From assembly GCA_902613915.1 (NCBI GenBank), contig CACMJB010000009.1, positions 1 to 42,450 of the forward strand: a stretch of 42,450 bases of DNA, written 5' to 3'. A program made the translations under genes and the position numbers. Numbering within the stretch: position 1 is the stretch's first letter; each line of letters starts with the position of its first letter. The stretch is from an uncultured Pelagibacteraceae bacterium (GTDB taxonomy: Bacteria; Pseudomonadota; Alphaproteobacteria; Pelagibacterales; Pelagibacteraceae). Of the stretch, positions 3,375-14,000 are shown one piece after another. The notes under the pieces were generated by a model. That model worked only from the letters and a program-made list of their open reading frames with translations, was not told the DNA's origin and ran no database searches.

Positions 3375-4271
3375 CTACGGAACTAATAAATTTATAAATC
3401 TGTCTGTTTTTTGGATTTCAAGACTGTTTACGTAACCACAATTTTCACCATCAACTTGTGATAGAACTTTATTGTTTACACCATTTATTTTTAATCTGTT
3501 CAATTCTTTTTTAATTACACTTTTTGCAGGAGTTAAGTCGCCTTTGGTTAAAATTAACCAAACATAATAAAGTAATTTTATTCTGGTCAGGTCTTTAAAT
3601 ATGTAAGCCACTATCCTGTTTTCAAATATATTGGTATCATTAGTTATAGAATGGGGACCAGCATAGTATTTTGAATTAGTACATAAAATCCAATCAGCCA
3701 TAATTTTTTCATTATCTACCTTAACCTCCATTTTATTATTTTTTAAAAATAAAAAATGCTGAAAACCTTTTAAAGCGAAAATTACTTTTCCAAGATACTT
3801 TTTAATATTAGTATTTATGGACTCAACAATTCGAGAGTCAAAACCTACACCAGCCATCAAGAAAAAGTACTTATCATTTATTTTTGCTAATGAAATTTTC
3901 TTTTGATTATCTGATACTAGGACGTTGTAAATCTCCTCCGCCTTTTTCTTAATTTGAGTTTCTATTTGTAAAATATTTGCAGTGCCAGCAGGTATGTATC
4001 CAACTAATTTGTCTTTTAGATTATCACTTTTAAACATTTCATTAATACCAAAACATACGCTCCCGTCACCGCCAGCAAATACTAACCGATCAAATTTTTT
4101 ATTAGACAATTCTTTAAATACATTCCTTGCATGATCTTCGCTTTCGGTTTTAAAAAGATCTACAATATGATTTTTTTCTAAAAGATTAATGACCTTGTTA
4201 ATTAATTTAAGTTTTCTACCACCTGCTGCATTTGCGTTAAATATCACTGCAAAATTCAATTTTTTATTCAT
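3375..4271 (-). CDS. Diacylglycerol/sphingosine kinase-family lipid kinase
   Basis: A DAGK-catalytic-domain protein of the YegS/DgkB type, expected to phosphorylate diacylglycerol to phosphatidic acid at the inner membrane using ATP. The nucleotide loop GGDGS is at residues 67-71, followed by LVGYIPAGTANILQIE, the family's PxGTxN motif, and MAGVGFDSRIVE. Length (298) is normal. The start at 4271 lies beside the Pho box of the divergent plcP gene, two bases from its first unit, so any promoter of its own must overlap that region. Next to a diacylglycerol-releasing PlcP and a diacylglycerol-using glycosyltransferase, a role in recycling diacylglycerol into phospholipid is likely. The exact lipid substrate cannot be read from sequence. 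Confidence 0.75.
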   Translation of the reverse strand: MNKKLNFAVIFNANAAGGRKLKLINKVINLLEKNHIVDLFKTESEDHARNVFKELSNKKFDRLVFAGGDGSVCFGINEMFKSDNLKDKLVGYIPAGTANILQIETQIKKKAEEIYNVLVSDNQKKISLAKINDKYFFLMAGVGFDSRIVESINTNIKKYLGKVIFALKGFQHFLFLKNNKMEVKVDNEKIMADWILCTNSKYYAGPHSITNDTNIFENRIVAYIFKDLTRIKLLYYVWLILTKGDLTPAKSVIKKELNRLKINGVNNKVLSQVDGENCGYVNSLEIQKTDRFINLLVP

Positions 4272-4272
4272 A

Positions 4273-4301
4273 TTTTAACAATTCTGTAACATATTTATGA
4301 T
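4273..4301 (+). promoter_or_regulatory. Three-unit Pho box upstream of plcP
   Basis: Seven-base units spaced by four AT bases: TTTTAAC (4273-4279), CTGTAAC (4284-4290), TTATGAT (4295-4301). The 7-4-7-4-7 spacing is that of PhoB direct repeats. The core TGTAACATAT is identical to the one before pstS. An AT-rich -10 region follows within about 15 bases. The site overlaps an upstream in-frame ATG at 4297, which argues that plcP translation starts at 4336. Confidence 0.65.
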
Positions 4302-4335
4302 TCTACTTTTACTAGAGATTCGTTTTATAAAAAAT

Positions 4336-5151
4336 ATGGAAACAATTCAAACTAAATCTAAGGGAAAGATTTTAAATTACAAAAGCATCTTTATTTCCGA
4401 CTTGCACCTTGGGCATAGAAAAAGTGCAGCAAACAAATTATTAGAATTTTACAAACATTCAAGGTCAGAGAATTTATATCTTGTTGGTGATATCATTGAT
4501 GTTTGGGCTTTAAAAACAAAATTTTACTGGCCTCAAGAACATAATGATGTGATTCAAAAAACATTAAGAAAAGCTAGACATGGAACAAAAGTAAAATATA
4601 TTGTTGGAAATCATGATGATGTGTTTAGAAAGTTTTTACCATTACACTTTGGAGATATCGAAGTAATTAACAGAGCTATACATGTCTCGGCAGATAATAA
4701 AAAGTATATTGTTGTTCATGGTGATGCCTGGGATGGAGTGATGAAATATGCTCCATGGTTATCAAAAGTAGGAGCTATTGCTTATAGTTTTTTACTTGAG
4801 TTTAATGTTGTTATCAATTTTTTTAGAAGATTATTTAAAAAGGGTAATTGGTCTTTAGCAAAATATTTAAAACACAAAGTAAAGAACGCTGTAAAATATA
4901 TAGGCGATTATGAAAAAACTTTAGCAACTTATGCTAAAAGAAAAAATGTTGATGGTATAATTTGTGGTCATATTCATCATTCTGCCGATCAAGTCTTAGA
5001 TGGTGTGAGATATTTAAATTGTGGTGATTGGGTAGAAGGTGCAACTTTCTTGGTAGAACATTTCGATGGTCGCATGGAAGTTATTGACTGGGACAAAATC
5101 AGAGGTGATGTTGTCGATTACGAGCCATATCTAAAAGTAGTAAATAAATGA
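4336..5151 (+). CDS. plcP: PlcP-type metallophosphoesterase (phospholipase C; LpxH-like fold)
   Basis: A calcineurin-like metallophosphoesterase with all metal ligands visible: SDLHLGH (21-27), GDIIDVW (51-57), GNHDD (91-95), VVHGD (126-130) and GHIHH (211-215). Proteins of this kind are often labelled UDP-2,3-diacylglucosamine diphosphatase. Two facts favour the PlcP branch, which cleaves phospholipid head groups to diacylglycerol during phosphate starvation: it directly precedes a GT4 glycosyltransferase in a PhoB/Pst cluster, and it has a Pho box. PlcP with Agt is the known lipid-remodelling pair of marine alphaproteobacteria, including SAR11. I use the ATG at 4336 (271 residues) because the alternative at 4297 lies in the Pho box. 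An LpxH-like role in lipid A synthesis is the main alternative. Confidence 0.75.
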   Translation: METIQTKSKGKILNYKSIFISDLHLGHRKSAANKLLEFYKHSRSENLYLVGDIIDVWALKTKFYWPQEHNDVIQKTLRKARHGTKVKYIVGNHDDVFRKFLPLHFGDIEVINRAIHVSADNKKYIVVHGDAWDGVMKYAPWLSKVGAIAYSFLLEFNVVINFFRRLFKKGNWSLAKYLKHKVKNAVKYIGDYEKTLATYAKRKNVDGIICGHIHHSADQVLDGVRYLNCGDWVEGATFLVEHFDGRMEVIDWDKIRGDVVDYEPYLKVVNK

Positions 5152-6155
5152 AAATTTTAATCGTTACTGATGCCTGGTATCCGCAAGTGAATGGTGTTTG
5201 TAGAACTTTAAAAAATCTTGGCGATGAATTAAAAAAAATTGGACATCAGGTTGAATATATTGAACCTAATCAATTTTTTACTGTGCCAATGCCAAAATAT
5301 AATGAAATAAAACTTTCTCTTAATGTTTGGCCTAGAGTAGGTAGATTAATTTCTAAAGCCGATGCTGACATAATTCACATAGCTACAGAAGGCCCGATAG
5401 GAATATTTGCAAAAAGATATTGTGTAAAAAATAAGCTTAAGTTTACCACGTCTTACCATACTCAATTTGATAAATATTTGAAGCTATACTATCCTTATTT
5501 GCCAATTAAGCTTGCTCAAAAGTTCCTTAAAGGATTTCATTCAAAGGCGGAAAAAATTTTAGTAACAACTCAATCAATGAAAGATGAACTTCAAGAAATT
5601 GGTTTTGATAAGGATAAGATGGTTGTTTGGACCAGAGGGGCAAACCACGGGGCATTTCAAAAGCCTAAAAAGATTAATTTAGAGTATAAAAGACCAATTT
5701 ATCTTTATGTGGGTAGGGTATCTATTGAGAAGAACATCAGAGCATTTCTGGATTTAGAGTTAGAAGGCACGAAACTAGTTGTTGGTAAAGGACCTGATTT
5801 AGATAAACTTAAAAAAGAATACCCTGAAGCAATATTTAAAGGAGAGAGAACAAATGGTGAGCTTGCAAGTTACTTTGCTTCTTCTGATGTTTTTGTTTTC
5901 CCGAGCAAAACAGATACTTTTGGAATTGTAATTATAGAAGCTTTAAAATGTGGATTGCCAGTAGCTGCTTACCCAGTAGCAGGACCAAAAGATATTTTTA
6001 ACGGTACAAACATTGGCTCGTTAAACAACGATCTTAAAAAAGCAGCACTTGAAGCTCTTAAGTCAGATAGAAGCGCTTGCATTGAGCATGCAAAAAAATA
6101 TACCTGGGAAAATTGCGCAAAAATCTTTTTAGATAGTGCGGTATCAAACCGCTAA
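5148..6155 (+). CDS. agt: GT4 glycosyltransferase, probable Agt-type glycolipid synthase
   Basis: A 335-residue GT-B glycosyltransferase of family 4. The N-terminal acceptor domain begins TDAWYPQVNGVCRTLKNL, a glycine-containing loop typical of lipid glycosyltransferases. The C-terminal donor domain has YVGRVSIEKNI and the nucleotide-sugar motif SKTDTFGIVIIEALKCGLP, with the conserved Glu of the family. It overlaps plcP by four bases (ATGA), so both are made together. The inferred job is to add a sugar to the diacylglycerol released by PlcP, giving phosphorus-free glycolipid at the inner membrane. Which sugar is used (glucose, galactose or glucuronate) cannot be read from the sequence. Confidence 0.75.
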   Translation: MKILIVTDAWYPQVNGVCRTLKNLGDELKKIGHQVEYIEPNQFFTVPMPKYNEIKLSLNVWPRVGRLISKADADIIHIATEGPIGIFAKRYCVKNKLKFTTSYHTQFDKYLKLYYPYLPIKLAQKFLKGFHSKAEKILVTTQSMKDELQEIGFDKDKMVVWTRGANHGAFQKPKKINLEYKRPIYLYVGRVSIEKNIRAFLDLELEGTKLVVGKGPDLDKLKKEYPEAIFKGERTNGELASYFASSDVFVFPSKTDTFGIVIIEALKCGLPVAAYPVAGPKDIFNGTNIGSLNNDLKKAALEALKSDRSACIEHAKKYTWENCAKIFLDSAVSNR

Positions 6156-6197: not shown

Positions 6198-7394
6198 ATG
6201 GAATTCTTACTTTACTCTCTTGCTGGAATAATTGTGATCGTAGTAATTGCAGTATCCAGAAAATCAATTGTAGCAGGTATGGAGGCAAGATCCGATATTA
6301 AGAGAGAGAACAAACCAAGTAATAATGAAGAGGGAATAGAAGACATCACCAATGAAAATATTGAAAAAACTAATGAGCAAGTAAAGATTATAAATCAAAT
6401 CGATGATCTAATTTTAATTGTAGATAAATTTAAAAATATCAAATTTTTTAATAGTAGTGCAAAAAAAAAATTTGGAGAAAATAATTTAAATAAGCACGTG
6501 GCTACTTTATTGAGAGTTCCTGATTTACTCCAAAATATTGATTTAGTGCTTTTAAAAAAAGAGACAATTACTATGGATTTAGAATTATCCTCTCCCTCAT
6601 TTCAGTTCTTTAAAGTTCATCTATTCTCTGGACCGACCTCATATGTCGATGATCCTGACTCAGTTGTTTTATTTCTAAAAGATTTAACTGATATTATAAA
6701 AGCGCAAAGGTTCAAATCTGATTTTGTAGCCAATGTAAGCCATGAACTTAAAACGCCTTTAGTTTCTATTAAAGGATTTCTAGAAACTATAAGCGGACAT
6801 GCGAAAGATGATTTAGAAGCACAAAAAAAATTCATACCGATAATGCTTGAGCAAGCTGATAGGATGGAAAGCTTAATTAAAGATTTACTTTCATTAAGTA
6901 GAATTGAGTTAGAGGAACATATACAGCCTCAAGATAAAGTAAATTTAAAAGAAATTTTAAGTAACGTTGAAGACATCCATCAAAAAAATTTAAAATCTTT
7001 TGAATTTAAAAATAATATAAAAGATGATTTCTTTATTAAAGGCGATCATGAAAAATTAATTGAAGTTTTTTCAAATATTATTGATAACAGTATAAAATAT
7101 TCAGAAAAAAATAAAAAGATCGAAGTTAATTGTGGGCAAGGTAACGGAAAAGTAATAGAAGACTCTTATACCGTGTCCATTAAAGATAATGGTATTGGAA
7201 TTCCAACTGAACAACTTCCGAGAATTACAGAAAGATTTTTTAGAGTTGATGCAGCTAAAAGTAAAAAAGTTGGTGGCACTGGACTTGGAATGGCGATCGT
7301 GAAGCACATTGTTAATCAGCATAGAGGTGAGTTAGAAATAAAAAGTGAGGCTCAAAGGGGCACCGAAATAAAGGTTCACTTTTCTAAATTTTAG
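6198..7394 (+). CDS. phoR: Phosphate regulon sensor histidine kinase PhoR
   Basis: The sensor kinase that partners PhoB further downstream. It has one N-terminal membrane helix (about residues 2-19), a charged linker, a PAS-like domain (roughly 65-165), the HisKA motif FVANVSHELKTPLVSIKGF with phosphorylated H182, and the ATPase domain with N box NIIDNSIKYSE, G1 box DNGIGIP and G2 box GGTGLGMAIVKH. Length (398) fits PhoR. Having only one clear membrane helix and no periplasmic loop agrees with sensing through the Pst/PhoU complex rather than external ligand. It lies 42 bases after the glycosyltransferase, with no Pho box in that gap, so read-through from the plcP promoter is plausible. Confidence 0.9.
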   Translation: MEFLLYSLAGIIVIVVIAVSRKSIVAGMEARSDIKRENKPSNNEEGIEDITNENIEKTNEQVKIINQIDDLILIVDKFKNIKFFNSSAKKKFGENNLNKHVATLLRVPDLLQNIDLVLLKKETITMDLELSSPSFQFFKVHLFSGPTSYVDDPDSVVLFLKDLTDIIKAQRFKSDFVANVSHELKTPLVSIKGFLETISGHAKDDLEAQKKFIPIMLEQADRMESLIKDLLSLSRIELEEHIQPQDKVNLKEILSNVEDIHQKNLKSFEFKNNIKDDFFIKGDHEKLIEVFSNIIDNSIKYSEKNKKIEVNCGQGNGKVIEDSYTVSIKDNGIGIPTEQLPRITERFFRVDAAKSKKVGGTGLGMAIVKHIVNQHRGELEIKSEAQRGTEIKVHFSKF

Positions 7395-7457: not shown

Positions 7458-8069
7458 ATGACTAGAATAACAAATTATATAATTCTGGTTTTATTAACTT
7501 TAACTTTTACAACTGTTAAGGCAGATGTAAACTTAATTGAGAAAACTTTACGTTCTCAACCTCTCACAGTTTTTGATCTTGGACTTTTAAGACTTAAAAA
7601 CGATCTTAGGCAAGCTAAAAACGATTTAGTTCTTGAAGTAGATAATAAAAATGTATCTACAATTTATACTGAAGCTTTATTTTCTAGAAGAGACGATGGA
7701 ATTCAATTAATTGTGTCAGCACCGATGAGCACTCATTTAAATGCTAACTCGTACATGGTGGACTCAATTAAATGTAGAAAAATTTTTGAAAAAGTTAAAA
7801 ATAATCTTTTAAAAGGACAAAACGAGAGCAATATGATTCACTCAAAAGCTGCATCTTATTTAAGTGAAGTATTCACCGCTCCAACACAATGGAATGCTTG
7901 GAGATATGATAAAGGTTTTACTCAAAAATTAGTTAACTTTGTACAACTAGAAGTTACATTAAAGCCAACTCAATCCTACGCAGTTAAAAATAAAGTAAGA
8001 CCTTTTAGTTGCGGAGGGTCTTTAGCCTCTGATTATCAACAAATCGAGATAACTAGAAAGTTCAACTAA
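7458..8069 (+). CDS. Exported protein of unknown function between phoR and pstS
   Basis: 203 residues, no family recognised. A signal peptide is clear: TRITNYIILVLLTLTFT followed by likely cleavage after A22 (VKA-D). The mature protein has two cysteines, C106 (SIKCRKIF) and C185 (PFSCGG), which could form a disulfide in the periplasm. Its position between the sensor kinase and the phosphate-binding protein suggests a periplasmic role in phosphate acquisition or envelope remodelling, which is inference from context. A possible promoter is TTGAGA (7424) with TAAAAT (7446); there is no obvious Pho box. Base composition matches its neighbours. Confidence 0.75.
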   Translation: MTRITNYIILVLLTLTFTTVKADVNLIEKTLRSQPLTVFDLGLLRLKNDLRQAKNDLVLEVDNKNVSTIYTEALFSRRDDGIQLIVSAPMSTHLNANSYMVDSIKCRKIFEKVKNNLLKGQNESNMIHSKAASYLSEVFTAPTQWNAWRYDKGFTQKLVNFVQLEVTLKPTQSYAVKNKVRPFSCGGSLASDYQQIEITRKFN

Positions 8070-8079
8070 AAAGTTATCA

Positions 8080-8108
8080 TTTTAATAAATTTGTAACATA
8101 TCTGTAAT
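8080..8108 (+). promoter_or_regulatory. Three-unit Pho box upstream of pstS
   Basis: Units TTTTAAT (8080-8086), TTGTAAC (8091-8097) and CTGTAAT (8102-8108) with four-base AT spacers, the PhoB repeat spacing. Same organisation and core TGTAACATAT as the site before plcP. It lies about 70 bases before the pstS start and is followed at once by a perfect inverted repeat. Confidence 0.75.
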
Positions 8109-8128
8109 AATTAAGAGTCCTCTTAATT
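8109..8128. repeat. Perfect inverted repeat after the pstS Pho box
   Basis: Arms AATTAAGAG (8109-8117) and CTCTTAATT (8120-8128) around a two-base centre. It starts on the base after the Pho box and covers where the -10 element and transcription start are expected, so it may be an operator or a short hairpin at the mRNA 5' end. The plcP promoter lacks it. Confidence 0.6.
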
Positions 8129-8176: not shown

Positions 8177-9181
8177 ATGAGAAAACTATCAATCGCTTTA
8201 GCTTCATTAGTTGCAATGTTAGTTGTAACTTCTGCTCAAGCTAGAGATCAGATTAAAATCGTAGGTTCTTCAACTGTATTCCCTTATGCAACAATCGTTG
8301 CTGAAAGATTTGGTTCGTCTGGTAAATTTAAAACACCAGTAATCGAGTCAACAGGAACAGGTGGTGGAGCTAAATTATTCTGTGCTGGAGTTGGTACAGA
8401 GCACCCAGACATAACAAATGCATCTAGAGCTATGAAGGCTAAAGAGTATGCGCTATGTCAAAAAAATGGTGTTGAAGAAATCGTAGAGATTACAGTTGGT
8501 AACGACGGAATAACGTTAGCTTATTCTAAAGATGCTAAACCAGTAAACTTTACAAAAAAACAATTATGGGCAGCATTAGCAAAAGAAGTTGCTAAAGATG
8601 GTGCGTTAGTACCAAATCCATATAAAAATTGGAGTGATATCGACCCATCATTACCAAACTACCCTATTAAAATTATGGTGCCTCCAGGAACATCAGGAAC
8701 AAGAGATGCTTGGAATTCATTAGTAATGAAAAAAGGTATCGATGATGCTTCTAAAAAAGCTGGCGCTAAATATAAAGCGTTAAGAGAAGATGGTGCGGTA
8801 ATTGAAGTTGGTGAGAACGACTCACTTATTATTCAAAAATTAGCTGCGGACAAAGAAATGTTCGGTTTCTTTGGTTTCAGTTATTTCTTAGCTGCAAAAG
8901 ATAAATTGCAAGCTGCAAGCATTGAAGGCGGTCAACCAAGTCTATCTTCGATTCAAGATTACAGTTACGCAGTTGCAAGACCTTTATTCTTCTACGTGAA
9001 AAAAGCTCACGTGGGCGTTGTACCTGGCTTACATGAATTCGTAAAAGAGTTCACAAGTAAAAAAGCTATGGGTAAAAAAGGTTATTTAACTGATATCGGG
9101 CTAGTACCTCTAGATGGCAAGTTATACAAAACATCTAGAACTAACGCTACGAAGTTAGTTAACATGCCTGCTAAGAAGTAG
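8177..9181 (+). CDS. pstS: Phosphate-binding periplasmic protein PstS
   Basis: The periplasmic phosphate receptor of the Pst ABC importer. A signal peptide ends at about A22 (SAQA-RDQ). Phosphate-contacting segments are IVGSSTVFPYA near residue 30, ESTGTGGGAKLF, NASRAMK and PPGTSGTRDAWNS. Length (334) is typical. AAAGGATAA before the ATG gives a fair ribosome site. The codons look more polished (more GCT, GGT, AAA, few rare choices) than in neighbouring genes, as expected for a very abundant protein. It has its own Pho box and a terminator-like hairpin just after its stop, so its mRNA should greatly exceed that of pstC. Confidence 0.95.
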   Translation: MRKLSIALASLVAMLVVTSAQARDQIKIVGSSTVFPYATIVAERFGSSGKFKTPVIESTGTGGGAKLFCAGVGTEHPDITNASRAMKAKEYALCQKNGVEEIVEITVGNDGITLAYSKDAKPVNFTKKQLWAALAKEVAKDGALVPNPYKNWSDIDPSLPNYPIKIMVPPGTSGTRDAWNSLVMKKGIDDASKKAGAKYKALREDGAVIEVGENDSLIIQKLAADKEMFGFFGFSYFLAAKDKLQAASIEGGQPSLSSIQDYSYAVARPLFFYVKKAHVGVVPGLHEFVKEFTSKKAMGKKGYLTDIGLVPLDGKLYKTSRTNATKLVNMPAKK

Positions 9182-9196
9182 TAGTATCAATTAAAC

Positions 9197-9223
9197 AAAA
9201 AGGGGGTATTTTACCCCCTTTTT
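9197..9223 (+). terminator. Strong hairpin with T tract between pstS and pstC (partial terminator)
   Basis: A 12-base perfect stem, arms 9197-9208 and 9212-9223, with core GGGGGTA/TACCCCC and a three-base loop, ending in five T's. It begins 16 bases after the pstS stop. No other promoter is evident before pstC at 9241, so partial read-through would set a high PstS to PstCAB ratio. Confidence 0.8.
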
Positions 9224-9240
9224 ATCTCTGGAAGCTCAAT

Positions 9241-10617
9241 ATGAATTTAATACTTGTAACTTTTATTATTCTCTTAGCTTTCACAAGTTATTATTTCGGT
9301 AGAAAAAAAGCTCTAGTTATTCAATCATCACAAAGACTTACGGCATTACCAAAATTTTATGGATATTATTTAGCTGCTTGGTGTGCTGCACCAGCATTAA
9401 TAATTTTTGCTCTTTGGTCAGTTTTTGAACCATCAATAGTTAAAACATTTATTTTACAAGATTACACTGATCAGAACTTAACTAAAAATGAGCTTCAGCT
9501 TATTTACACAAAGGTTAAAGCATTAGCCGCAGGAACTTACACGGGAAATATCACTAATTTTCTAGATGAGTCTGCTAATAAGTACATTCAATTAAAAGGA
9601 ATAGCTAACAGCGCTAAAGTAGCAATTATTTTAGCAATTTTAATTTTCTCTCTGAGTTTTGCGTATAGATCTGTTCAGAAAAATGATCGAATGAGAGAAC
9701 CAGTAGAAATTTTTCTTAAATGGGTTTTATTTGTTGCATCATTAGGCGCAGTTTTAGTTACAATCGGAATAGTTTTTTCACTTTTATTCGAAGCGATTAG
9801 GTTTTTTCAAGCAGTAAAAATCTTTGACTTTATATTCGGAACTCATTGGTATCCTGCTAAAACTTTTGTAAGAGATGGCCAACCAGATCCTGAATTAATG
9901 AAGGATGCTTTCGGAGCTGTGCCTTTATTTGCTGGGACTTTTTTTATTGCTTTTATTGCAATGTGTGTTGCCATCCCCATAGGTTTGCTGAGTGGGATAT
10001 ATCTATCTGAGTATGCTGGAAGAGGCGTAAGAAAATATGCGAAACCTATTATTGAGATTTTAGCTGGTATTCCAACAGTGGTATATGGTTTTTTTGCAGC
10101 TTTAACCGTCGGTCCTTTTGTTAAAGAAATTGGTAACGCTATGGGTTTAGAAGTTTCAGCGGAGAGCGCTTTAGCTGCAGGAGCAGTTATGGGAGTAATG
10201 ATAATTCCTTTTATTTCAAGTCTAAGCGATGACGTTATGACGGCAGTACCTCAAAATTTAAGAGATGGGAGTTACGCAATGGGCGCAACAAAATCTGAAA
10301 CTGTAAAAAAAGTAATTTTTCCAGCAGCCCTACCTGGTATCGTAGGTTCGATACTTTTAGCAGTATCGAGAGCGGTAGGAGAAACAATGATTGTTGTAAT
10401 GGCCTCAGGACTAGCGGCTAATCTTACAATGAATCCACTTGAGTCAACTTCTACCATTACAGCGCAAATTGTAGTAATTTTAATTGGAGACCAACAATTT
10501 GGAGATCCAAAAACTCAATCAGCTTTTGCATTAGGAATATCTTTATTTATAGTAACTTTATTCTTAAATGTAATCGCTCTTTCAGTTGTTAAAAAATATA
10601 GGGAAAAATATGAATAG
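9241..10617 (+). CDS. pstC: Phosphate ABC transporter permease PstC
   Basis: One of the two inner-membrane channel subunits of the phosphate importer. At 458 residues it is longer than E. coli PstC because of an N-terminal part with two or more extra helices (first at about 2-17) and a polar region before the core, as in other alphaproteobacterial PstC proteins. The permease core begins around residue 210 and has the coupling-helix segment LRDGSYAMGATKSETVKKVI followed by LPGIVGSILLAVSRAVGET, which contacts PstB. It starts 17 bases after the hairpin that follows pstS and overlaps pstA by eight bases. Confidence 0.93.
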   Translation: MNLILVTFIILLAFTSYYFGRKKALVIQSSQRLTALPKFYGYYLAAWCAAPALIIFALWSVFEPSIVKTFILQDYTDQNLTKNELQLIYTKVKALAAGTYTGNITNFLDESANKYIQLKGIANSAKVAIILAILIFSLSFAYRSVQKNDRMREPVEIFLKWVLFVASLGAVLVTIGIVFSLLFEAIRFFQAVKIFDFIFGTHWYPAKTFVRDGQPDPELMKDAFGAVPLFAGTFFIAFIAMCVAIPIGLLSGIYLSEYAGRGVRKYAKPIIEILAGIPTVVYGFFAALTVGPFVKEIGNAMGLEVSAESALAAGAVMGVMIIPFISSLSDDVMTAVPQNLRDGSYAMGATKSETVKKVIFPAALPGIVGSILLAVSRAVGETMIVVMASGLAANLTMNPLESTSTITAQIVVILIGDQQFGDPKTQSAFALGISLFIVTLFLNVIALSVVKKYREKYE

Positions 10618-11881
10618 TTTTAAGAAAAATTTATTAAAAAAAAGATATAACGCTGAAAGAAGATTTCAATGGTATGGCAAAATAGCTATAGGATTAGCTT
10701 TAAGCTTTTTAGCAGTTTTTATGTTTCAGATATTTTCAAAAGGTTACTCAGCTTTCCAAAAAACTTGGATAGTAACAGAAGTTCATTATGATAAAGAATT
10801 ACTTTTAATCGATGCAGAAAGCCCATCAAAAGATGATTTAGAAAATGCAGACTATTATGATGTTGCTTACAAAGCTATGACCTCATTAGATCCTGGACTT
10901 CCTGAAGAAGAGGATCGTCAATTGATACAAATGGTTTCGTATAAATATGAGGCAGAGGTTAAAGATCTACTTTTAAAAAATCCAGACTATCTAGGTAAAA
11001 TAGTGTCCATAAAATTAACAGCTTCTGATGATGTTGATCAAGTTCATAAGGGAAATTATCCAAGAGATATTCCTGAGGAGAATAGAAGAGTAAATGATTA
11101 CCAGTTGCAGATTTACGATATGCTTAATGAAAGAGGAGATATTTTATCAGAGTTTAACATTAGTTTTTTTACAAGTCCTGATTCAAGAGAGGCAGAACTA
11201 GCAGGTATAGCTAGCTCGTTTATGGGAACAGTTTTTAGTATACTAGTATGTTTAGCGTTTTCATTTCCTGTTGCAGTGCTAGCTGCAATTTATCTCGAGG
11301 AGTTTGCACCAAAAAATAAATTTACAGATTTTATAGAAGTAAACATTAACAATTTGGCAGCTGTTCCATCGATAGTATTTGGTTTGCTAGGTCTTGGTGT
11401 TTTATTAGCAGTTTTTAATTTACCAAGATCGACACCACTTGTTGGAGGAATTACTTTGTCTCTTATGACATTACCAACAATAATTATTGCTGCAAGAGCT
11501 TCTTTAAAAGCTGTTCCCCCAAGTATAAGAGAAGCTGCTTTAGCGATGGGTGCAAGTAATATGCAAACAACCATGCATCATACTGTGCCACTATCAATGC
11601 CTGGAACTTTATCTGGAACGATAATTGGCTTGGCTCAAGCTTTAGGGGAAACAGCCCCTTTAATTTTAATAGGAATGGTTGCTTTTGTGAATACAATACC
11701 TGGTACGCCAGTTGATCCTGCTGCAAGTTTACCAGTTCAGATATATATATGGTCAGAAAGTGCTGAGAGGGGTTTTGTTGAAAAAGTATCTGCATGTATT
11801 ATGGTGCTTCTAGCTTTTTTAATTTTAATGAACTTGGCAGCTCAAATCGTTAGACACAAATTTGAAAAGAAATGGAGTTAA
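10610..11881 (+). CDS. pstA: Phosphate ABC transporter permease PstA (with long periplasmic insert)
   Basis: The second channel subunit. I place the start at the ATG at 10610 (MNSFKKN), eight bases inside pstC, rather than at an in-frame codon at 10586 further inside that gene; this gives 423 residues. The first helix (about residues 22-40) is followed by a charged domain of some 140 residues, corresponding to the DUF3333 region of alphaproteobacterial PstA, and then the normal permease core. Its coupling segment is IREAALAMGASNMQTTMHHT, with PGTLSGTIIGLAQALGETA after it. It abuts pstB with no gap. The periplasmic insert may dock PstS; that is inference. Confidence 0.93.
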   Translation: MNSFKKNLLKKRYNAERRFQWYGKIAIGLALSFLAVFMFQIFSKGYSAFQKTWIVTEVHYDKELLLIDAESPSKDDLENADYYDVAYKAMTSLDPGLPEEEDRQLIQMVSYKYEAEVKDLLLKNPDYLGKIVSIKLTASDDVDQVHKGNYPRDIPEENRRVNDYQLQIYDMLNERGDILSEFNISFFTSPDSREAELAGIASSFMGTVFSILVCLAFSFPVAVLAAIYLEEFAPKNKFTDFIEVNINNLAAVPSIVFGLLGLGVLLAVFNLPRSTPLVGGITLSLMTLPTIIIAARASLKAVPPSIREAALAMGASNMQTTMHHTVPLSMPGTLSGTIIGLAQALGETAPLILIGMVAFVNTIPGTPVDPAASLPVQIYIWSESAERGFVEKVSACIMVLLAFLILMNLAAQIVRHKFEKKWS

Positions 11882-12637
11882 ATGAGTAAAATAAAAGCGG
11901 AAAATGTAAATGTTTATTACGGATCCAAACAGGCATTATTTGACGTCTCTATAGATATAGCAGAAAAAGAAGTTACAGCTTTAATTGGACCATCTGGGTG
12001 TGGAAAGTCTACTTTCTTAAGATGCTTGAACAGGATGAACGACGTCATAGAAATTTGTAGAGTTGAAGGCAGTATTAAAATGGACAACCTAGAACTGAAT
12101 TCAAGAAAGTTAGATGTTGTGAGACTTAGGGAGAACGTTGGTATGGTTTTTCAAAAACCCAATCCATTCCCTAAAACAATTTATGAAAATGTAGCTTATG
12201 GTCCTACTATTCACGGTATTGCACAGAGCAAAGAAGAAATGGATCAAATAGTTGAAACAAGTTTGAAAAAAGCTGCCTTGTGGAACGAAGTTAAAGATAG
12301 ACTTGATGAAATCGGAACTGGTTTATCAGGAGGTCAACAGCAACGACTATGTATTGCTAGAGCTATATCTGTAAGTCCAGAAGTGATTCTTATGGACGAA
12401 CCGTGTTCAGCGCTTGACCCAATAGCAACAGCTCAAATTGAAGAACTTATAGATGATCTTAAAAAAGAGGTCACAATTGTGATAGTTACCCACTCAATGT
12501 CACAAGCAGCTAGGGTATCTCAAAAAACAGGTTTCTTTCATTTGGGAAAACTTATAGAATTTGGATCAACAGATAAAATATTTAAAAATCCTGATAATCA
12601 GCAAACTCAGGATTATATTACAGGAAGGTTTGGTTAA
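11882..12637 (+). CDS. pstB: Phosphate ABC transporter ATP-binding protein PstB
   Basis: The cytoplasmic ATPase that powers phosphate import and, with PhoU and PhoR, takes part in phosphate sensing. Walker A is GPSGCGKST (36-44), the Q loop is in [13 protein letters not shown], the signature is LSGGQQQR, and Walker B is [13 protein letters not shown] with the switch His in VTHSMSQA. The FQKPNPFPK segment and the 251-residue length are typical of PstB. The start directly follows the pstA stop; its last base is shared with the phoU start. Confidence 0.95.
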
Positions 12638-13317
12638 TGAGTGAAAAACCGCACATTGTAAAATCTTACGAAGAGCAACTTCAGTTATTAAAAGATACAA
12701 TAGTGAAAATGGGAACTGGAGTTGAGAAACAGCTTGAAAACACTATTCAATCTTTAGTTAAAAAAGACATTGGTTTAGCAGAAAAATCTATCAAAGATGA
12801 CGAATTGACTGATAAGTATGAAATAAATATAGAAGAGCAAGTTGTAAATTTGATTGCCTTAAGGCAACCTATGGCAATAGATTTAAGAGAAACAGTTGTT
12901 GCCTTAAAAGTTTCTTCAGACTTAGAGAGAATTGGTGATTTAGCAAAAAACATCTCAAAACGATTAACTAAAATTGGAACTGATTTACCTAATGAAATTA
13001 CTAAAAATTTCGAAATAGCTGGTTTAAAAGCATCAAAACAAGTCAATGCAGTTTTAAATTCGTATTTACATAGAGCTAAAGATACAGCAGAAAATGTTTG
13101 GAATTCTGATGAAGAAATAGATCAAATGACTAATTCTAATATGGAAGCTGCAGTAAAGCATTTAGAAAAAAATAAAAACGATATACAAAAAGTAACCCAA
13201 CTACTTTTCATGCTTAAAAATATTGAGAGGATTGGAGATCATGCAACCAATATTGCAGAGCAAGTTTATTTTCTGATTACAGGAGATTATTTAGAGGGAG
13301 ACCGACCAAAAGGATAA
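12637..13317 (+). CDS. phoU: Phosphate signalling regulator PhoU
   Basis: An all-helical protein with two PhoU repeats that links PstB and PhoR and keeps the regulon off when phosphate is sufficient. Each repeat carries a metal-binding E/DxxxD signature: LERIGDLAKNISKR in the first and IERIGDHATNIAEQ in the second. Length (226) is normal. The gene is joined to pstB and phoB by one-base overlaps, so stoichiometry is probably set by translational coupling. Confidence 0.95.
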   Translation: MSEKPHIVKSYEEQLQLLKDTIVKMGTGVEKQLENTIQSLVKKDIGLAEKSIKDDELTDKYEINIEEQVVNLIALRQPMAIDLRETVVALKVSSDLERIGDLAKNISKRLTKIGTDLPNEITKNFEIAGLKASKQVNAVLNSYLHRAKDTAENVWNSDEEIDQMTNSNMEAAVKHLEKNKNDIQKVTQLLFMLKNIERIGDHATNIAEQVYFLITGDYLEGDRPKG

Positions 13318-14000
13318 TGAGGGCAAATTTATTCATTGTTGAAGATGAAATGCCCATCGTAACTTTACTTAAATACAATTTAGAAAAAGAGGGTCACAAA
13401 GTTGATTATGCAGTCAATGGAGAAGACGCTATTAGAAATATAAAGGAAAAAAATCCTGATTTAATTTTATTAGATTGGATGTTGCCAGATATTTCAGGTG
13501 TTGAAGTCTGTAAAAATTTGAAAAGAAGCAATCTTCACAAAAATATCCCAATCATTATGTTAACAGCCAAAGGTGAGGAAGAAGACAAACTTAAAGGATT
13601 TGAAACAGGAGCTGATGACTATGTAACTAAGCCATTCAGCCAAAAAGAACTTATTGCAAGAATTAACGCTTTATTAAAGAGATCTAAACCAAGTGTTGCC
13701 GCTGATGTTGTAGTATTTGAGGATCTTAAAGTAGATAGAGTTCAACGAAGAGTTTATAGAGCAGATAAACAAGTTATAGTCGGCCCAACCGAATTTAAAC
13801 TAATTGATTTTTTAATAAAGAATCCAAAAAGAGTATATTCGCGTGAGCAACTTCTAAATTCTGTATGGGGAGATGATATTTATGTTGAGTCCAGAACTAT
13901 AGATGTTCATATAAGAAGACTAAGAAAAGCAATAAATATTGATGGCAAGAAAGATCTTATCAGAACAGTAAGATCTGCTGGCTATTCCTTAGATGTTTGA
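13317..14000 (+). CDS. phoB: Phosphate regulon response regulator PhoB
   Basis: A two-domain OmpR-family regulator phosphorylated by PhoR. The receiver has acidic residues at D10 and nearby E11, the phosphorylated D53 (LLDWMLPD), T83 and K105 (TKPF). The C-terminal winged helix (GPTEFKLIDFL, REQLLNSVWG, then VDVHIRRLRKAI-like IDVHIRRLRKAI) binds Pho boxes such as those at 4273 and 8080. It is the last gene of the cluster. Its 3' end overlaps the convergent SixA-like gene by 19 bases, leaving no room for a terminator between them. Confidence 0.93.
   Translation: MRANLFIVEDEMPIVTLLKYNLEKEGHKVDYAVNGEDAIRNIKEKNPDLILLDWMLPDISGVEVCKNLKRSNLHKNIPIIMLTAKGEEEDKLKGFETGADDYVTKPFSQKELIARINALLKRSKPSVAADVVVFEDLKVDRVQRRVYRADKQVIVGPTEFKLIDFLIKNPKRVYSREQLLNSVWGDDIYVESRTIDVHIRRLRKAINIDGKKDLIRTVRSAGYSLDV

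Follow-up and report, generated by a model that had tools for sequence, protein, structure and literature searches.

A lipid kinase gene runs divergently from the plcP-agt lipid-remodelling genes in SAR11 and many other Alphaproteobacteria, with Pho-box layouts that differ between lineages

In an uncultured SAR11 bacterium of the family Pelagibacteraceae, a gene for a lipid kinase of the DAGK_cat family lies back to back with plcP and agt, the genes of a phospholipid-to-glycolipid pathway, and the same divergent arrangement recurs in most plcP-bearing genomes of the family and in many other Alphaproteobacteria. The stretch of DNA analysed (the window; 42,450 nucleotides, GenBank assembly GCA_902613915.1, contig CACMJB010000009.1) is part of contig C9 of the 1.008-Mb, 21-contig genome G000. 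Since the arrangement is kept in many related bacteria, the kinase probably belongs to the same membrane-remodelling system, and the simplest role that would fit its company is to remove surplus diacylglycerol (DAG) and feed phosphatidate back. We consider it somewhat more probable than otherwise that these genes form an alphaproteobacterial module at the DAG branch point, in which plcP and agt are joined by a divergent kinase recycling DAG to phosphatidate, with PhoB wiring that is specific to the lineage. What is new is not the pathway, which was known, but that a kinase recurs as its third member and that the PhoB wiring of this kinase varies. The core of the locus is laid out as follows.

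3375..4271, minus strand: DAGK_cat lipid kinase, 298 amino acids (open reading frame and profile match; closest solved structure by sequence, DgkB).
4273..4291, plus strand: Pho box TTTTAACAATTCTGTAACA, facing plcP (pstS-box matrix, score 23.0).
4292..4335, plus strand: remainder of the shared intergenic region, presumed plcP promoter, with GATTC (GANTC) sites at 4299 and 4317.
4336..5151, plus strand: plcP, calcineurin-like phosphoesterase, 271 amino acids (open reading frame, Metallophos match and start alignment).
5148..6155, plus strand: agt, GT4 glycosyltransferase (open reading frame and Glyco_transf_4 match).

To follow the kinase through SAR11, one set of 147 genomes from the window's order, 94 of them from its family, was searched with both the kinase and the PlcP proteins. 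Within the family, the two genes occur together in 50 genomes, plcP without the kinase in 3, the kinase without plcP in 1 and neither in 40; the kinase thus accompanies plcP in 50 of 53 genomes and occurs in 1 of the 41 without plcP (relatedness among the genomes inflates any test on these counts). The two genes share a contig in 49 of the 50 genomes with both and are divergent in all 49, with 64-113 bases between the aligned parts, and in two of the plcP-only genomes (G108 and G120) the contig breaks off beside plcP, on the flank expected to carry the kinase. An earlier note, made from the sequence of the window, had proposed the coupling of the kinase to plcP as its own conjecture, to be given up if the two proved unlinked in relatives. 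In most relatives they are linked, the exceptions being two genomes of one genus. Because 40 of the 41 plcP-less family genomes also lack the kinase, we assign it to the remodelling module and reject a role as the SAR11 housekeeping DAG kinase; by this pattern it tracks the remodelling genes rather than lipid synthesis at large.

The window's genome has no DAGK_cat match other than this kinase. Like 146 of the 147 genomes of the order, it also lacks the membrane DAG kinase DgkA, which was discarded as the SAR11 DAG kinase on this count. The single DgkA match (G026, locus L142, 1471-1803), in a genome with no plcP match, lies between a mannose-1-phosphate guanylyltransferase-like gene and phoR-pstS, the place taken by kinase-plcP-agt in sister genomes, so that a different DAG kinase occupies the same locus there.

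The arrangement extends beyond SAR11. In a sample of 385 alphaproteobacterial genomes, the matches listed comprise plcP in 143 (of 146 plcP genomes), the kinase in 121 and both in 86. Kinase and plcP lie within 2 kb of each other in 63 of these 86 genomes, the window's included, and are divergent in all 63. An Agt-like gene, sought by motif in the 29 best-scoring plcP loci of the class after the window's, follows plcP at 17 of 17 loci with an adjacent kinase versus 6 of 12 without one (Fisher p 0.002). In a tree of 77 kinases (a usable protein from 76 of 79 fetched loci, plus the window's; bootstrap not settled), the 11 SAR11 kinases form a single clade. It lies within a well supported group of 19 that also holds seven plcP-adjacent kinases and one with plcP about 5 kb away. 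In S. meliloti, SMc00170, by its number the neighbour of plcP (SMc00171), is sinR.

The identities of the two pathway genes are consistent with this picture. The plcP product matches Metallophos, the calcineurin-like metallophosphoesterase family, at 41.8 bits against a cut-off of 21.5, and the agt product matches Glyco_transf_4 at 78.1 bits; agt follows plcP directly, overlapping it by 4 bp (5148-5151). The phosphoesterase could in principle have been the lipid A enzyme LpxH, a point on which the earlier note had staked its interpretation, but two NCBIfam LpxH models score it at 47.2 of 134 and 36.4 of 190 bits, far under their cut-offs, and a gene for LpxI is present elsewhere in the window's genome and in 121 of the 147 genomes of the order. 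We set the LpxH reading aside on the profile scores and the LpxI gene, not on a tree. With the protein families, the upstream Pho box and the downstream agt all in place, the reading of the pair as a phospholipid-to-glycolipid pathway gains support. A Phaeobacter plcP mutant is reported to regain DGTS synthesis with plcP of the SAR11 strain HTCC7211, whose agt is reported to make the glycolipids MGDG and GADG from DAG in Escherichia coli (PMC4796936), and the release of DAG by PlcP and its consumption by Agt are reported as shown or concluded for the HTCC7211 genes (PMC4796936, PMC8231724). By analogy, PlcP of the window would hydrolyse phosphatidylethanolamine and phosphatidylglycerol to DAG, and its Agt would make glycolipid from DAG.

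The DAGK_cat family spans several substrates. The window kinase matches its profile (PF00781) at 75.8 bits against a cut-off of 23.6 and has the conserved residues N12, GGDG (67-70), GTAN (96-99) and DG (274-275); GGDG is present in all 77 aligned kinases, and SAR11 kinases retain the late DG(E/D) motif. The closest solved structure by sequence is that of the soluble bacterial DAG kinase DgkB (PDB 2qv7; E 2e-13, residues 9-282 aligned), a distant relative with which the window kinase has the GGDG and DGE motifs in common. From family and context, DAG is our best guess for the substrate. An AlphaFold model of the kinase, for which 10 close sequences were used, was of poor quality, with a mean pLDDT of 52.8.

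The plcP promoter carries a predicted Pho box that is conserved and beyond chance. Scored with a matrix of 17 of at least 23 distinct pstS boxes from relatives (five weak boxes were left out, as was one that begins with the 19 bases of the plcP box), the box at 4273-4291 reaches 23.0, oriented to plcP and second in the window only to the window's own pstS box at 8080 (25.1). First-order random sequence, scored at about 2 million positions, gave nothing as high (p <= 5e-7). A pattern derived from the site matches the 1.0-Mb genome exactly at a single place, the plcP box itself; with up to two mismatches it has seven matches, two of them in the pstS array, versus four for the backward control. 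When the SAR11 kinase-plcP intergenic regions are grouped into 15 clusters, the representatives of 14 have a plcP-facing box at p <= 4e-6 and that of the fifteenth (L121) has a weaker one (p 5e-5). These clusters, formed at 88% identity from 53 distinct sequences in 169 loci, include some genomes repeatedly and are not independent of one another. The earlier note's description of the site proved accurate: overlapping plcP and agt genes with a Pho box of their own in the neighbourhood of the PhoB/Pst cluster, and a kinase gene whose start codon (A at 4271, opposite strand) lies two bases away from where the box begins, at 4273.

SAR11 promoters fall into two layouts. In 9 of the 15 clusters the plcP-facing box stands alone, and in seven of these nine it all but touches the kinase start, at a distance of one or two bases; such spacing is seen in the window, in its close relatives and in some members of the sister genus, including G013 (locus L144). 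The other six clusters have a second, inverted box facing the kinase (p 5e-7 to 9e-6), always 48 nucleotides beyond the first. No kinase-facing Pho box was found in the window, where the best such score in the gap is -0.4; scores stay at or below 7.2 in the window's cluster, versus 13.0-23.0 in the two-box clusters. When at most one mismatch is allowed, the inverted box occurs in 17 of 197 family genomes, and 14 of the 17 have it within the kinase-plcP gap (positions compared by eye). Outside SAR11, among 62 other alphaproteobacterial gaps, pairs matching the box at 12 or more of 14 positions were found nine times facing plcP and 16 times facing the kinase, with 0.3 expected on each strand after shuffling. 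The kinase-facing boxes in SAR11 clusters and in other Alphaproteobacteria therefore predict parallel induction, and the general pattern leans towards co-induction of the kinase with plcP-agt. The switch control of the kinase seems to differ between lineages.

These observations suggest the following mechanism. PhoB bound at 4273-4291 would activate plcP-agt; PlcP would strip phospholipids to DAG, Agt would glycosylate the DAG, and the divergent kinase, as third member, would phosphorylate DAG to phosphatidate, stopping it from piling up and returning its acyl chains to phospholipid synthesis. In several SAR11 lineages and in other Alphaproteobacteria, the second, kinase-facing box would bring about co-induction of the kinase. 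In the window's lineage the sole box faces plcP and lies beside the kinase start, for which reason the kinase is probably not activated by PhoB, and bound PhoB may keep it repressed. A bolder extension, which we put forward tentatively and would not call probable, is that the pair has been rewired within a single family, so that one box favours glycolipid over phospholipid and two boxes drive both arms as a DAG-phosphatidate cycle.

Several findings weigh against a module of this kind. The kinase is dispensable: one family genome with plcP (G054) is a true exception without the kinase, and in the sister SAR11 family all 21 genomes that carry plcP lack it. In one SAR11 genus the pair is broken. 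Kinase and plcP of G097 are on different contigs, plcP having another upstream neighbour, and in G109 (L157, 1-1684) the kinase, cut at its far end by the contig edge, is divergent from pstS in a genome with no plcP match; this kinase still points away from a Pho-box promoter, here that of pstS. The pair is also far from universal, as 80 of the 143 listed plcP genomes of the class have no adjacent kinase. In a phylum sample of 214 genomes, the two genes, where both were present, were adjacent (compared by eye) in four of 20 alphaproteobacteria and in none of the 11 genomes from outside the class; most of the 16 alphaproteobacteria without adjacency have a weak kinase match. Kinase-facing boxes exceed those of control plcP promoters by a modest margin, on uncorrected p values (14 of 62 gaps versus 4 of 52 controls, nominal p 0.039; 28 versus 15 at a looser cut, p 0.08). 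Boxes facing plcP were not commoner than in controls (8 of 62 versus 14 of 52, p 0.09; looser, 26 versus 26). The controls were 52 of the 80 plcP genomes without an adjacent kinase, among which kinases too divergent to be recognised may hide. Of the 80, 60 were typed, 48 of these listed and 40 retrieved, and 12 further loci completed the control set. Finally, the window kinase scores 104.1 bits against TIGR00147 (YegS/Rv2252/BmrU lipid kinases), under the cut-off of 118.65, and SAR11 kinases depart from their relatives right after GGDG (T71S, N73C/S and E74F). S71 and F74 are each found in 10 of 11 SAR11 kinases, E74 in 40 of 40 plcP-adjacent relatives. The window kinase thus lacks the T-x-N-E that usually follows GGDG in the aligned relatives, a feature not established as defining DgkB; these three residues are otherwise nearly invariant among the aligned plcP-adjacent kinases. 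Because of these changes and the missed TIGR00147 cut-off, the substrate of the kinase, and even its activity, are putative.

The explanation that the earlier note had proposed is that PhoB at a single box activates plcP-agt and blocks the kinase, giving glycolipid when phosphate is short and phospholipid when it is replete. The window's lineage and some sister types fit it, with a plcP-facing box one or two bases from the kinase start codon and no kinase-facing partner, so placed that PhoB would presumably sit on or just past any transcription start of the kinase. As a general rule, though, it is not supported, as the kinase-facing boxes in six SAR11 clusters and elsewhere in the class predict the opposite, and a kinase serving times of phosphate plenty would be expected in plcP-less SAR11 genomes, yet 40 of the 41 in the family lack it. 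As an account of the whole we therefore think it rather unlikely. For single-box lineages such as the window's an opposed switch is a possibility; the missing kinase-facing box there would fit repression of the kinase or indifference to PhoB alike.

The reverse proposal, that PhoB activates the kinase along with plcP-agt everywhere and that the window's lineage uses a degenerate box missed by the matrix, draws on the two-box types, on the kinase-facing boxes elsewhere in the class and on Pseudomonas putida BIRD-1, in which PlcP and DagK are reported as lipid-remodelling proteins enriched under phosphate depletion, with expression called PHO-dependent (PMC5082522). The kinase-facing scores in the window's gap and cluster speak against it when set beside those of the two-box clusters. 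In the same source, the proteins named as lost in the phoBR mutant include PlcP and not DagK; this DagK is compared with the window kinase by name, and comes from a bacterium of a different class from the window's; adjacency was not seen in the non-alphaproteobacteria sampled. We regard this proposal as unlikely.

Improbable to a similar degree is a kinase acting on another lipid, such as phosphatidylglycerol as for YegS or a ceramide-like substrate as for CpgB, or one that is a weak or inactive relative. The breadth of DAGK_cat, the unusual residues beside GGDG and the TIGR00147 score would all accommodate it, as would Caulobacter CpgB, reported as a ceramide kinase within the wider lipid-kinase family (PMC10331486), but the close association is with plcP and agt, whose common metabolite is DAG, and the best match among solved structures is DgkB. 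That the kinase merely hitch-hikes on a phosphate genomic island, as island-like gene gain in the region, such as the probable ols genes of some relatives, and the G109 kinase beside pstS might suggest, is very improbable given that one relative (L146) retains the divergent trio with no pst gene within its 12 kb, that divergent adjacency recurs in the class and that SAR11 kinases nest among plcP-adjacent ones.

The recycling module we favour has counterparts in the literature that differ in what they include. The PlcP-Agt (GTcp) remodelling system of HTCC7211 resembles the window in having plcP followed by agt, a Pho box and phosphate genes nearby, yet the word 'kinase' is absent from the main texts of both papers describing it (PMC4796936, PMC8231724). 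In the relative represented by L144, plcP and agt are 69% and 66% identical to those of the window and the divergent kinase is present. Phosphate islands of HIMB59 are reported to hold pst, phoR-phoB, 'DGK', 'LpxH' and 'RfaG' together (PMC10734472), the last three of which are probably the kinase-plcP-agt set under other names; this comparison is by gene names, not gene order, and the authors, as far as their account goes, treat the glycosyltransferase and DGK as without direct phosphorus function and LpxH as a lipid A enzyme. A table of Red Sea SAR11 clusters includes a diacylglycerol kinase, a metallophosphoesterase and a group 1 glycosyltransferase, each marked 'HTCC7211 only' (PMC3686209), and is a list, giving no arrangement, regulation or mechanism. 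We found no description of the divergent kinase-plcP arrangement, or of the facing boxes, in a literature search that did not extend to key SAR11 starvation papers, which may report the kinase.

Downstream of agt, the locus continues into the phosphate cluster.

6198..7394, plus strand: phoR-like sensor kinase, first gene of the adjoining phosphate cluster (best NCBIfam matches PhoR/PnpS, under cut-offs).
7458..8069: gene for a 203-amino-acid hypothetical protein, between phoR and pstS (open reading frame).
8080..8109, plus strand: pstS Pho box array, made up of three 11-bp repeats and serving as the reference for the plcP box.
8177..14000, plus strand: pstS, pstC, pstA, pstB, phoU and phoB (open reading frames, named by eye from translations).

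The 203-amino-acid protein matched no Pfam or NCBIfam family at E 0.001; its counterparts adjoin phoR in relatives at 30-100% identity. In some relatives (L018, 2542-4123; L144, 2417-3981; L062, L063, L150, L151 and L153), GNAT-like and PlsC-like genes, absent from the window, lie between agt and phoR; judged by eye, they are probably olsB-olsA for ornithine lipids. Identity to the window is mosaic in L063 (kinase 96%, plcP 75%, agt 89%) and L046 (plcP 96%, agt 69%), which suggests gene-by-gene recombination. The start of plcP was placed by ORF finding at 4297 (frame 4297-5151). With the two closest clusters excluded, 12 of 13 SAR11 intergenic clusters have one in-frame ATG, near the aligned start that corresponds to 4336; in the remaining cluster (L146) a second ATG is located elsewhere. 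We therefore place the start at 4336 and consider ATG 4297 less likely. GANTC sites of the CcrM methylation type are scarce in the window (57 seen, about 121 expected), with two in the kinase-plcP gap (4299-4303 and 4317-4321) and two in the pstS promoter (8115 and 8133). All 50 distinct kinase-plcP gaps examined in SAR11 have at least one such site; across the class, the intergenic set shows no enrichment (63 seen, 76 expected). The G000 genome has an N6_N4_Mtase match with a 357-amino-acid open frame. In some single-box sister lineages (L128 and L151), the gap also holds an inverted repeat, GATTCTA-N7-TAGAATC, between the box and plcP.

PlcP-Agt remodelling is a known route by which abundant marine heterotrophs lower their need for phosphorus. 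For the fate of surplus DAG, and for the return when phosphate comes back, we found no description in the literature searched; a kinase encoded back to back with plcP is a likely enzyme for both. If the tentative rewiring within one family is true, the arrangement of its boxes would decide whether a lineage commits itself to phosphate-free membranes or hedges. The two natural layouts offer a ready comparison between a kinase that would be opposed to glycolipid synthesis and one that would be induced together with it.

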